From Bacteroidota bacterium (GTDB lineage: Bacteria; Bacteroidota; Ignavibacteria; SZUA-365), in assembly GCA_003246455.1 (NCBI GenBank), contig QKAF01000142.1, positions 1-43,085 of the forward strand: 43,085 nucleotides of DNA, given 5' to 3'. The notes under the pieces are model-generated. The model worked only from the letters and a program-made list of their open reading frames with translations, did no database searches and was not told where the DNA came from. Positions within the stretch are counted from its first letter, which is position 1, and every line of letters starts with the position of its first letter. Shown here one piece after another: positions 39,764 through 43,085 of this stretch. The position numbers were made by a program, and so were the translations under genes.

Positions 39764-39781
39764 GGCTGATCGCGATCAGCC
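39764..39781. terminator. Perfect 18-bp palindrome between converging genes
   Basis: GGCTGATCGCGATCAGCC covers the mutS stop codon and starts 2 bp after the DUF2752 stop. It lacks a T-run on either side. It could form a shared 3'-end hairpin for both transcripts. Confidence 0.45.
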
Positions 39782-42385
39782 TTCAGCCATTTTCTTCAGT
39801 TCATCCAGCAGCTTCCAGGCGTCGACGGGAGAAAGCACATTGATGTCGATTGCGCGGAGCCGATCCTTGAGTTCCATGTCGCTGGCCTCGAACAGACTGA
39901 TCTGAAACTGCCGCGCGCGAGATGAGAGCTTCGCGCGCGCTTCTTCTTCGCTGCGCGCGGCGAGCACCGTGAGGTCCTGCCCTTCAAGCGAATGCAGCAC
40001 CTGCCGGGCGCGTTCGATAACCGCGTCAGGGAGGCCCGCCATCTGCGCGACCTGGATGCCGTAGCTGTGGTCGGCGGTTCCCCGGGAAACGTTCCGCAGA
40101 AATATCACCTTGTCCTGATATTCCCGCACCTCGACCTTGTAGTTGCGGATGCGGGGGAAAATGTCCGCCATCTCGTTGAGTTCGTGGTAATGCGTGGCGA
40201 ACATGGTTTTTGCGCGGCTCTCGGGGTTGTCGTGCAGAAACTCGGTGATGGCCCATGCGATGGAAATGCCGTCGAAGGTCGAAGTGCCGCGTCCGATTTC
40301 GTCGAGCAGGACGAGGCTTCTGGGGGTCGCGTTGTTGAGGATGTTCGCCGCTTCGTGCATCTCCACGAGGAACGTGCTTTCTCCCGCCGCGATGTTGTCG
40401 GAGGCGCCGACCCGCGTGAAGATGCGGTCGACGACGCCGATCCTTGCCTCCCTGGCGGGCACGAAGCTGCCGATCTGCGCCAGGAGCACGATCAGTCCCG
40501 TCTGCCGGAGATAGGTGCTCTTTCCGCTCATGTTCGGGCCGGTAATGATCATGATCTGCTCGTCCTCGCTGAGCAGCACGTCGTTGGCCACGAAGCGTTC
40601 ACCCGGGGGGAGCAGACGTTCGACGACGGGATGGCGTCCCTCATTGATCACGATTTCCGTCCCGTCGTTCATCACGGGACAGGCGTACCCATACTCGATC
40701 GCGGCGAGGGCCAGGGCGTTGATGCAGTCGAGGACGGCGATCGCGCGCGACAGCTGCTGAAGCCGGTCGGCGGTCGCCGCGACCGCCATGCGCAGTTCGT
40801 TGAACAGTTCCGTCTCGAGTACGACGATCTGTTCCCGCGCGTTGAGCACCTTGTCTTCGTATTCCTTCAGTTCCGGTGTGACGTAGCGTTCCGCGTTCGT
40901 GAGCGTCTGCCGACGGATGAACGTCTCGGGCACCTTGTCGAGATTCGCATTCGAAACGTTGATGAAATAGCCGAAAGCCTTGTTGTACTCGAGACGCAGG
41001 GAACTGATGCCGGTTTCACCGCGGAGCCGTTCCTGGTAATTGCGGATCCATTCCTTTCCGTGCGTCGCGATGTCGCGGATTTCGTCGAGCTCGGCATGGT
41101 AGCCCGGACGGATCGCACCGCCGTCATTGAGATTCATCGGCGGATCGTCCACCAGCGTTTCGTCGATCAGTCGCGCGACGTCATCGAGCGGTTCGATCTG
41201 CGTGTGCAGCGACCGCAGGTAGGGGGCGTCGCAGTCCTGCATGGCGTCCCGCAGCAGAGGCACGCGGCGCAGGGATGCGCGCAGCGCCGTCAGTTCGCGC
41301 GGTGTCGCGCGGCCGGTGCATATGCGTCCGGTGAGGCGATCGAAATCCACCATCTCGCCCAGCATGTCATGGATACGCTCGCGGCGGTCATGCGCGGTGG
41401 TGAGTTCCTTGACCGCGGCGAGCCGCTGCTGGATCGCGTCGAGTTTTTTCAGCGGGTGCGTCACCCAGTACTTGAAAAGACGTCCGCCCATCGACGTGGC
41501 AGTCCTGTCGAGAATCGAGATGAGCGTGCCGTCCTTCCCGCCTTCTCCGATGGATGCGACGATCTCCAGGTTTCGGCGCGTGGATGCGTCCAGCGTAATG
41601 TAGTCGTCGGCCAGGTAGTGCCGGATGTTCTGCAGATGCGGCAGGTTGGCCTTCTGCGTTTCCTTCAGGTAATGCAGCGCCGCGCCCGCGGCGATGACAC
41701 CGGCGGTCAGGGATTCGATCCCGAATCCCTTCAGCGACTGCGTCTTGAAATGCGTGACGAGAATCTCATAGCTCGTGTCGCGCGCATACACCCAGTCGTC
41801 GAGCTTCGTGATCGGCACGTGCAGCGGATTACGGCCGAAAAGGTCGTGGAAATGGTCGATGTCCTTTTTCGCCAGCAGCACCTCCGACGGACCGATGGTG
41901 TCGAGCTGGTCGCGAAGCTGGTGTTCCGCGATCTCGCTGGTGAAGAAATCCCCCGTCGACGCATCGACGAAGGCGACGCCCGCGGTCGAGCCGTGGAAGG
42001 CGACGGATGCCAGGAAGTTGTAGTGCTTGTGGTCGAGCAGCTTGTCGGTGAACACCACGCCGGGCGTGACGATTTCCACCACATCGCGCTTGACGATGCC
42101 CTTCGCCTTTTTCGGATCCTCCATCTGCTCGCACACCGCCACCCGCATCCCCGCCCGGATGAGTTTCGGCAGGTAGGTGTCGAGCGCATGATGGGGGAAG
42201 CCCGCGAGCGGCACCTCGTTCGCCGCACCGTTGGAGCGCTTCGTCAGCGTGATCCCCAGCACCTTCGCCGCCGTAATCGCATCCTGCTCGAAAGTCTCGT
42301 AAAAATCGCCCATGCGGAACAGCAGTATCGCATCCGGATACTCGGATTTTATCTGCTGGTACTGCCGCATGAGAGGAGTGGACAT
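39776..42385 (-). CDS. mutS: DNA mismatch repair protein MutS
   Basis: This 869-residue protein has the full MutS plan. The N-terminal mismatch-binding domain contains the FYE motif (28-30, GDFYETF) that wedges into mismatches. The connector, lever and clamp regions follow. The ATPase domain has Walker A GPNMSGKST (616-624) and Walker B LVLLDEIGRG (Asp695, Glu696), with the signature STFLVEMHEAANIL. It recognises mismatches and small loops as a dimer and recruits MutL. ATG 42385 matches the family start; the open frame runs further upstream but into unrelated, AT-rich sequence. No ribosome site is visible before this ATG: the inverted repeat that flanks the GxxExxY gene ends 7 bp upstream. 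Confidence 0.97.
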   Translation of the reverse strand: MSTPLMRQYQQIKSEYPDAILLFRMGDFYETFEQDAITAAKVLGITLTKRSNGAANEVPLAGFPHHALDTYLPKLIRAGMRVAVCEQMEDPKKAKGIVKRDVVEIVTPGVVFTDKLLDHKHYNFLASVAFHGSTAGVAFVDASTGDFFTSEIAEHQLRDQLDTIGPSEVLLAKKDIDHFHDLFGRNPLHVPITKLDDWVYARDTSYEILVTHFKTQSLKGFGIESLTAGVIAAGAALHYLKETQKANLPHLQNIRHYLADDYITLDASTRRNLEIVASIGEGGKDGTLISILDRTATSMGGRLFKYWVTHPLKKLDAIQQRLAAVKELTTAHDRRERIHDMLGEMVDFDRLTGRICTGRATPRELTALRASLRRVPLLRDAMQDCDAPYLRSLHTQIEPLDDVARLIDETLVDDPPMNLNDGGAIRPGYHAELDEIRDIATHGKEWIRNYQERLRGETGISSLRLEYNKAFGYFINVSNANLDKVPETFIRRQTLTNAERYVTPELKEYEDKVLNAREQIVVLETELFNELRMAVAATADRLQQLSRAIAVLDCINALALAAIEYGYACPVMNDGTEIVINEGRHPVVERLLPPGERFVANDVLLSEDEQIMIITGPNMSGKSTYLRQTGLIVLLAQIGSFVPAREARIGVVDRIFTRVGASDNIAAGESTFLVEMHEAANILNNATPRSLVLLDEIGRGTSTFDGISIAWAITEFLHDNPESRAKTMFATHYHELNEMADIFPRIRNYKVEVREYQDKVIFLRNVSRGTADHSYGIQVAQMAGLPDAVIERARQVLHSLEGQDLTVLAARSEEEARAKLSSRARQFQISLFEASDMELKDRLRAIDINVLSPVDAWKLLDELKKMAEG

Positions 42386-42392
42386 AAGAACT

Positions 42393-42429
42393 ACCACGAA
42401 AACGCTAAAACACGAAAAAGAGACGCGAA
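42393..42429 (+). repeat. Left inverted-repeat arm beside mutS
   Basis: This purine- and CACGAAAA-rich arm contains ACCACGAAAACGC, ACACGAAAAA and GAGACGCGAA. It is the inverted copy of 42891-42928. Its outer end is 7 bp from the mutS start codon. Confidence 0.85.
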
Positions 42430-42435
42430 GGATTG

Positions 42436-42867
42436 TTAGATAGCATCGGATTCCGTTGCGAGCGTATTGCTCATCACATACCTGCGGATTCCATGCTTGA
42501 TGTTCACAACATGGAAGTTTAGTAAAAATCCGAGTGGTTTGGAAGTCAACCGCAGATAGGATAACAGCTGTGCGGTGTGAATTGGTTCGAACGTCCTTAC
42601 GCACTTGAGTTCAAGGACAATCGAATCAGCGACAACGATATCGAGGCGTAGTTTCGCCGCTAAATCGACGCTCTTGTACGTTAATGTGATCGGCACCTGT
42701 CGCTTAAGTGGGATACTTCGAATCTCCAGTTCCCTGCACAGGCAAGCTTCGTAAACCGATTCGAGTAGGCCCGGACCCATCTCGCAATGTACTGTATAAC
42801 ATGCGTCAACAATTTCCGCCGCAAGCCGCTCTAACTCGGCGGGAAGCGGCGAATAGAATTTCTTCAT
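42436..42867 (-). CDS. GxxExxY protein, PD-(D/E)xK nuclease-like
   Basis: This 143-residue protein has the family motif GLLESVY (Gly33, Glu36, Tyr39). The nuclease-like core is Asp76 (LRLDIVV), Glu86-x-Lys88 (LELKCV) and a following glutamine in HTAQLLSYL (Gln100), as in PD-(D/E)xK folds. The family is widespread in environmental bacteria, with no established function. Its codons are more A/T-rich than those of its neighbours. The start has GGGAG 8 bp upstream. It lies alone between two inverted-repeat arms, between mutS and adenine deaminase. Nuclease activity is inferred from the motif only. Confidence 0.92.
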   Translation of the reverse strand: MKKFYSPLPAELERLAAEIVDACYTVHCEMGPGLLESVYEACLCRELEIRSIPLKRQVPITLTYKSVDLAAKLRLDIVVADSIVLELKCVRTFEPIHTAQLLSYLRLTSKPLGFLLNFHVVNIKHGIRRYVMSNTLATESDAI

Positions 42868-42890
42868 CTTTGTTCTCCCTAATTAATATT

Positions 42891-42928
42891 TTCGTGTCTC
42901 CTTTTTCGTGTCTTTGCGTTTTCGTGGT
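42891..42928 (-). repeat. Right inverted-repeat arm beside adenine deaminase gene
   Basis: Read on the minus strand this 38-bp arm begins ACCACGAAAACGC and continues with ACACGAAAAAGGAGAC, matching the left arm apart from a few changes. Its outer end is 13 bp from the adenine deaminase stop codon. Confidence 0.85.
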
Positions 42929-42940
42929 TTTTTCTTCCAC

Positions 42941-43085
42941 CTATACAAACATCGAGGTCAGCTCGAATTTCTCCGCGTCGACCAGGCCCATGTCGGTGAC
43001 TTTCAGGGCCGGGATGGGAGAGAGGGCGAGGAAGGACAGGGTCATGAAGGGATCGGGAAGCTGGCAGCCGAGGGATGAGGCGGCC
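42941..43085 (-). CDS. ade: Adenine deaminase, C-terminal end only
   Basis: The last 48 codons of a minus-strand gene enter from the window's right edge and stop at TAG 42941-42943. The sequence (GCQLPDPFMTLSFLALSPI, then PALKVTDMGLVDAEKF) is the highly conserved C-terminus of adenine deaminase, which converts adenine to hypoxanthine in purine salvage. The rest of the gene is outside the window, so catalytic residues cannot be checked. Confidence 0.88.
   Translation of the reverse strand, partial: AASSLGCQLPDPFMTLSFLALSPIPALKVTDMGLVDAEKFELTSMFV

Follow-up and report, generated by a model that had tools for sequence, protein, structure and literature searches.

A GxxExxY gene between inverted arrays of short repeats behaves like a small mobile element of a previously undescribed kind

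What is a small nuclease-like gene framed by two inverted repeats doing between ade and mutS? The question is raised by a locus on a contig from a Bacteroidota bacterium (QKAF01000142.1), of which a stretch of 43,085 nt, called the window here, was analysed. GxxExxY proteins form a common family without an assigned role; two open papers name them, and neither gives a function. A preliminary description of the sequence proposed that an A/T-rich minimal insertion unit, consisting of one GxxExxY gene and its inverted repeats, had entered a GC-rich background between ade and mutS.

The arrangement itself is confirmed. The GxxExxY gene (42436..42867, minus strand, 143 aa) is the sole ORF of a 536-bp unit (42393..42928), and no recognised transposase is encoded there. 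The left arm (42393..42431, plus strand) reads ACCACGAAAACGCTAAAACACGAAAAAGAGACGCGAAGG and contains CACGAAA, CGCTAAA, CACGAAA and CGCGAAG at spacings of 8, 8 and 13 nt. The right arm (42890..42928) is its inverted copy and reads ACCACGAAAACGCAAAGACACGAAAAAGGAGACACGAAA on the minus strand. Aligned without gaps, the arms share a core of 28 nt with 93% identity (42393-42420 and 42901-42928), and with small gaps allowed they reach about 39 nt each. The arm pair scores 27.5; when the identical geometry was applied to 4000 random positions of the window, no score exceeded 14. Of the inverted pairs in the window separated by no more than 2 kb, the 22 others show 71-82% identity, and none comes near the arm pair. 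Three-unit arrays occur in the whole window only as these two arms, both of which carry CACGAAA units. The low GC content was rightly noted (0.47 for the unit, 0.61 for the window), and so were the neighbours, which lie outside the element. On one flank, mutS (39776..42385, minus strand) has its start codon at 42385, 7 nt from the arm end. On the other, the 3' end of the adenine deaminase gene ade (42941..43085, minus strand) has its stop codon at 42941-42943 by direct reading, 12 nt from the arm end; its identity was assigned through the ade fragment of a relative (L080).

The encoded protein clearly belongs to the family, with a whole-profile score of 132.4 bits against TIGR04256 (GxxExxY, cut-off 35) and 128.9 bits against PF13366 (PDDEXK_3, cut-off 22). 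The candidate catalytic residues are E36, D76, E86-x-K88 and Q100-xxx-Y104. All of 75 family members keep H27, G33, L35, E36, Y39, D76, K88, G113 and an NF motif, and at least 90% keep E86 and Q100; Y104 is invariant in a set of 12 sequences. The resulting pattern, D...E-x-K...Q-xxx-Y, is characteristic of RecB/Cas4/lambda-exonuclease nucleases. The AF2 model is confident (pLDDT 90.7) and has a restriction-endonuclease-like fold. Among solved structures, the model comes nearest to SSO0001 (Z 9.4), to lambda exonuclease, which provides the top Foldseek matches (E about 0.01), and to Hjc resolvases (Z about 6-7, in one case 6.7), a Z below 8 being weak when taken alone. The fold match to I-Bth0305I is weak, and no significant match was found when PDB sequences were searched with the family profile. 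On the basis of the model and these residues, the GxxExxY protein is predicted to be an intact RecB/Cas4-type PD-(D/E)XK nuclease. As a lead only, the model (m7fdd2621e3bf, 42436-42867) also weakly resembles the fdxN-element excision controlling factor (2okf, Z 5.5).

The insertion-unit proposal would have fallen without arms at other GxxExxY genes, and such arms are indeed widespread. Matched inverted flanks, defined by a score of at least 15, were found at 127 of 169 loci and at none of 154 controls, in 12 named phyla including Archaea. In the class of the window genome, 71 of 91 loci had a matched pair, compared with 0/85 for distal controls taken from flanks 550-950 bp away. Among the usable loci of named genomes, which cover 12 named phyla including Methanobacteriota as well as KSB1, Dojkabacteria and SAR324, the counts were 56/78 and 0/69. 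GxxExxY genes were present in 43 of the 61 genomes searched (the window genome's own and relatives), with up to 12 copies per genome, several of them broken by stops or reduced to fragments. Arms were undetectable at about a quarter of the loci, including the second copy of the window genome (L001). This armless second gene recurs in relatives (L001 in G000:C46; L058 and L059) with 80-92% identity among congeners. L001 looks vertically inherited, judging from its 92% identity to the G003 counterpart, and the armless gene is possibly a domesticated copy. On viral contigs, only six GxxExxY relatives were found; some of them (L263, L265-L267) also have inverted flanks, but these are long, AT-rich and quite unlike the arms described here (TTCGGTCGCTTCGCC...). 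A plasmid search for near-identical filled and empty pairs returned 8 records only. The best-annotated one, from Bacteroides finegoldii (L378, NZ_OY725952.1), is labelled a plasmid and looks like a chromosomal fragment. Its genes include thrA, radA and others that are apparently chromosomal; its GxxExxY gene lies behind radA and has clear CACAGAG arms.

The arms follow a common grammar. Each consists of three to four units of the form C-R-C-N-R-A-(G/T), mostly spaced 8-10 nt apart. In a strict search, inward-pointing unit arrays were present on both sides of 95 of the 169 loci, and arrays of the opposite orientation at 15. A census of type-1 arrays was discarded because its backward-pattern control also matched often. 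The unit sequence varies from locus to locus, but the left and right arms of one locus agree. Left-right identity at the variable unit positions is 0.81 within a locus and 0.47 between loci, and unit spacing is equal in 77% and 12% of the comparisons, respectively; none of 1000 permutations reached the observed within-locus agreement. The unit type (AR- or ATT-ending) changes six times on the protein tree. Free shuffling of the labels never gave fewer than 14 changes, and shuffling confined to single genomes never fewer than 8. Arm-end signatures are limited to the genus whose GxxExxY unit bears them. Arm type thus tracks the protein clade even within genomes, and arms and gene are therefore inherited together as one unit. 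The protein may also recognise its arms, a step that goes beyond these alignments since joint inheritance alone could yield the same correlation.

Evidence of movement comes from orthologous sites. The preliminary description suggested looking for empty sites at the ade-mutS junction, and these exist: only a short intergenic gap is found there in G009, G012 and G013. In G007 the junction holds a gene-less palindrome, and in G002, G003, G005 and G008 it holds GxxExxY units whose genes form one clade. The window gene (L002) lies outside this clade and is more closely related to genes from other families (55% identity to G038, 44% to G003), and its arms are spaced differently from those of the clade. 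Between the window genome and G003, MutS is 95% identical and the other GxxExxY pair 92%, as opposed to 44% for the ade-mutS pair. The simplest reading of these sequences is that the window's unit replaced another GxxExxY unit, and an old syntenic locus is not what the relatives present. Gene-less sites of the window genome hold palindromes with other arms in G003 and G001, both arms having changed together, and one such site is empty in G002. In another genus, g20 (G029, G038, G047, G056), filled sites have different counterparts at orthologous positions. The counterpart of the L178 site is cleanly empty, a gene-less palindrome stands where the L075 unit would be, a remnant of an arm marks the L162 site, and the L167 unit is matched by a pseudogene. 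At the L141 unit site, G047 carries tandem duplications of an arm-containing segment of about 110 bp (L475, G047:C85:45180-46010). No target-site duplication is visible at the filled and empty pairs (L178 site, ade-mutS), which are merely about 75-90% identical, and no excision product was seen among these sites. Both neighbours could be read for 76 units. Of these, 53 have a gene of the unit's own direction on either side, and the neighbouring stop codon is a median of 8.5 nt away. In Flavobacterium sp. 7A, a unit lies between leuC and leuD (gene names assigned by eye from translated sequence). Because many units lie between same-direction genes, within about 10 nt of a stop codon, interruption or rearrangement of operons comes into consideration.

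The arm sequence also recurs elsewhere in the window genome, in the form of gene-less elements. In pattern searches, on which all genome-wide counts rest, an arm 13-mer with at most one mismatch had 36 matches, compared with 3 for the reversed control. Several of these matches pair up in inverted orientation at a distance of about 107-119 nt and enclose no gene, forming MITE-like palindromes of 130-150 bp. Their arms score 17-29 against the window arms, as opposed to at most 12.5 for the GxxExxY arms of other genomes, with one exception at 19. Like MITEs, they are short, non-coding and multi-copy, and have their ends in common with a gene-bearing element. Each palindrome that was inspected follows immediately after a stop codon, and a GC-rich hairpin occupies the centre of several. 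In G007, near-identical arms CGCAAAGACGCCAAGGCGCAAAGACGC recur about 110-120 bp apart, both clustered and dispersed (L363, L365, L366), which looks like a recent expansion.

The proposed explanation is that the GxxExxY gene and its two arms form a compact, self-contained selfish mobile element, and that the nuclease works on the arms of the element encoding it, a reading to which we assign a probability of about 0.6. Its parts differ in strength. That gene and arms make up a mobile unit is well supported by the sequence comparisons, and the arms found in general and the junction varying among relatives support the minimal insertion unit first proposed. The predicted nuclease would catalyse the movement, and its mode of cutting can be outlined conditionally. 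The protein would bind the units of both arms and pair the element ends, or act on a hairpin or cruciform formed by the arms, and cut there. Host repair would then copy or move the element into short intergenic gaps. Gene-less copies could be mobilised in trans or act as targets for insertion, comparable to the cognate sites that a homing nuclease converts. Recurrent repair between the arms might preserve their match even as the unit sequence drifts. One prediction is that the protein binds the arms of its own element but not arms from a different clade. If the explanation is true, a mobile element exists that measures only about 500 bp, has no transposase and has a RecB/Cas4-type nuclease as its sole gene product. 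It would join a family without an assigned role to short intergenic repeats of the CACAGAG/CACGAAG type, which have been seen in unrelated genomes and look like ends of the GxxExxY element.

Alternatively, the arms could be the ends of an element moved by an unrelated transposase (HUH/RAYT or IS) or by host repair, with GxxExxY as cargo. Gene-less copies do occur without GxxExxY in cis, and Y1 transposases are present in most of these genomes. Nevertheless, arm type follows the GxxExxY clade inside single genomes, and GxxExxY genes are found between such arms in at least 12 phyla. At Y1_Tnp loci, another kind of inverted repeat was found in 11 of 19 cases and CRCNRA units in none of 19. RAYT was rejected as the mover for this difference in repeats, and a passenger gene seems unlikely. 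There is a likeness to REP/BIME sequences and their RAYT (TnpA-REP): both comprise short inverted repeats, many gene-less copies and a small gene with related arms, in intergenic positions near stop codons. However, RAYT belongs to the HUH Y1 transposases and each REP forms a single hairpin, whereas the GxxExxY element has a PD-(D/E)XK nuclease and arrayed units 8-10 nt apart. RAYT flanks in the same genomes lack GxxExxY-type units, and the window unit contains no Y1_Tnp. MITEs and IS with terminal inverted repeats likewise share inverted ends, autonomous and non-autonomous copies, and empty sites, but the GxxExxY element lacks a transposase gene and has drifting unit arrays as ends, and no target-site duplication was seen. 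PD-(D/E)XK homing endonucleases of the I-Ssp6803I and I-Bth0305I type are similar as lone small selfish nuclease genes, with conversion of cognate sites as a possible parallel. In contrast to them, the GxxExxY gene here lies outside any intron or intein and has its own inverted arms.

A regulatory role was considered as well. The arms of an ordinary chromosomal gene could be operators or an RNA stem (a terminator or an RNase III site), and gene-less pairs would then be regulator sites or terminators. The position near stop codons, often between same-direction genes, and the GC-rich hairpin frequent in gene-less cores are in keeping with this. So is a description of Geobacter metallireducens, where pairs of tandem repeats on opposite strands, among them class 2 (TCTCCGTS = SACGGAGA) and the class 3 heptamers, were interpreted as putative sites of global regulators of the IHF/HU type (PMC2700814). 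An RNA stem would favour G-U-compatible left-right changes in the sense transcript, but there is no excess of them (172 vs 205), so a stem is not supported as the constraint on the arms. An operator, in turn, leaves unexplained the matching downstream arm, unit replacement, the empty sites in congeners and inheritance with the protein clade. Regulation is thus a distinctly improbable account. The class 2 repeats fit the unit grammar of GxxExxY arms and are paired on opposite strands; they appear to be gene-less arms and would be the earliest description found. The text consulted makes no link to GxxExxY or to a mobile element (PMC2700814). In the mainly open-access literature on the arm sequences, GxxExxY, PF13366 and TIGR02436, the element was not found described, and the Geobacter metallireducens article provided the only close match.

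RecB/Cas4-type nucleases are common in defence. GxxExxY might accordingly act against invading DNA or as an anti-loss device, with arms that mark self or serve in control. The fold match to SSO0001 and a weak similarity to Cas4 (E 0.023) point in this direction, but PADLOC gave no significant match for GxxExxY, and a lone, multi-copy, decaying gene with gene-less arm copies makes such a function very unlikely. An ancestral origin of the ade-mutS copy, with nothing more than fast evolution behind its divergence, is scarcely credible: the junction genes of four relatives do form one clade, but the tree contradicts this account by placing the window gene, with its differently spaced arms, elsewhere.

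A parallel arrangement exists around four-helix-bundle genes. 23S rRNA intervening sequences and S23 (TIGR02436) genes resemble the GxxExxY element in being short selfish units with one small ORF between inverted arms, but the protein is unrelated to GxxExxY and the units are strictly 7 nt long. In the same genomes, TIGR02436 genes have matched inverted arrays in 75% of cases, compared with 1.7% for mismatched loci. CRCNRA units on both sides were found at 0/28 of these loci, as against 99/171 GxxExxY loci; thus, each of the two unrelated proteins has its own repeat grammar. Units such as GATTACA, AGTCCTG and GTGGATA, differing locus by locus, were noted at L092-L121. Heptamer arrays of TAACTGA have been reported from Beggiatoaceae, Cyanobacteria and Bacteroidetes with no mechanism evident (PMC4679880). 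Tentatively, and at slightly less than even odds, GxxExxY and S23/IVS-type genes could belong independently to one widespread class of minimal selfish elements that has so far gone undescribed, each consisting of one small protein and two recognised inverted arrays of short units that drift in concert. Several unexplained heptamer or octamer intergenic repeats in the literature would then be gene-less copies. Where G038 has the L162 GxxExxY unit, G029 and G056 carry a gene-less heptamer-like palindrome with ATTTGGA-like units (L477, L476), so both element types may use the same sites.
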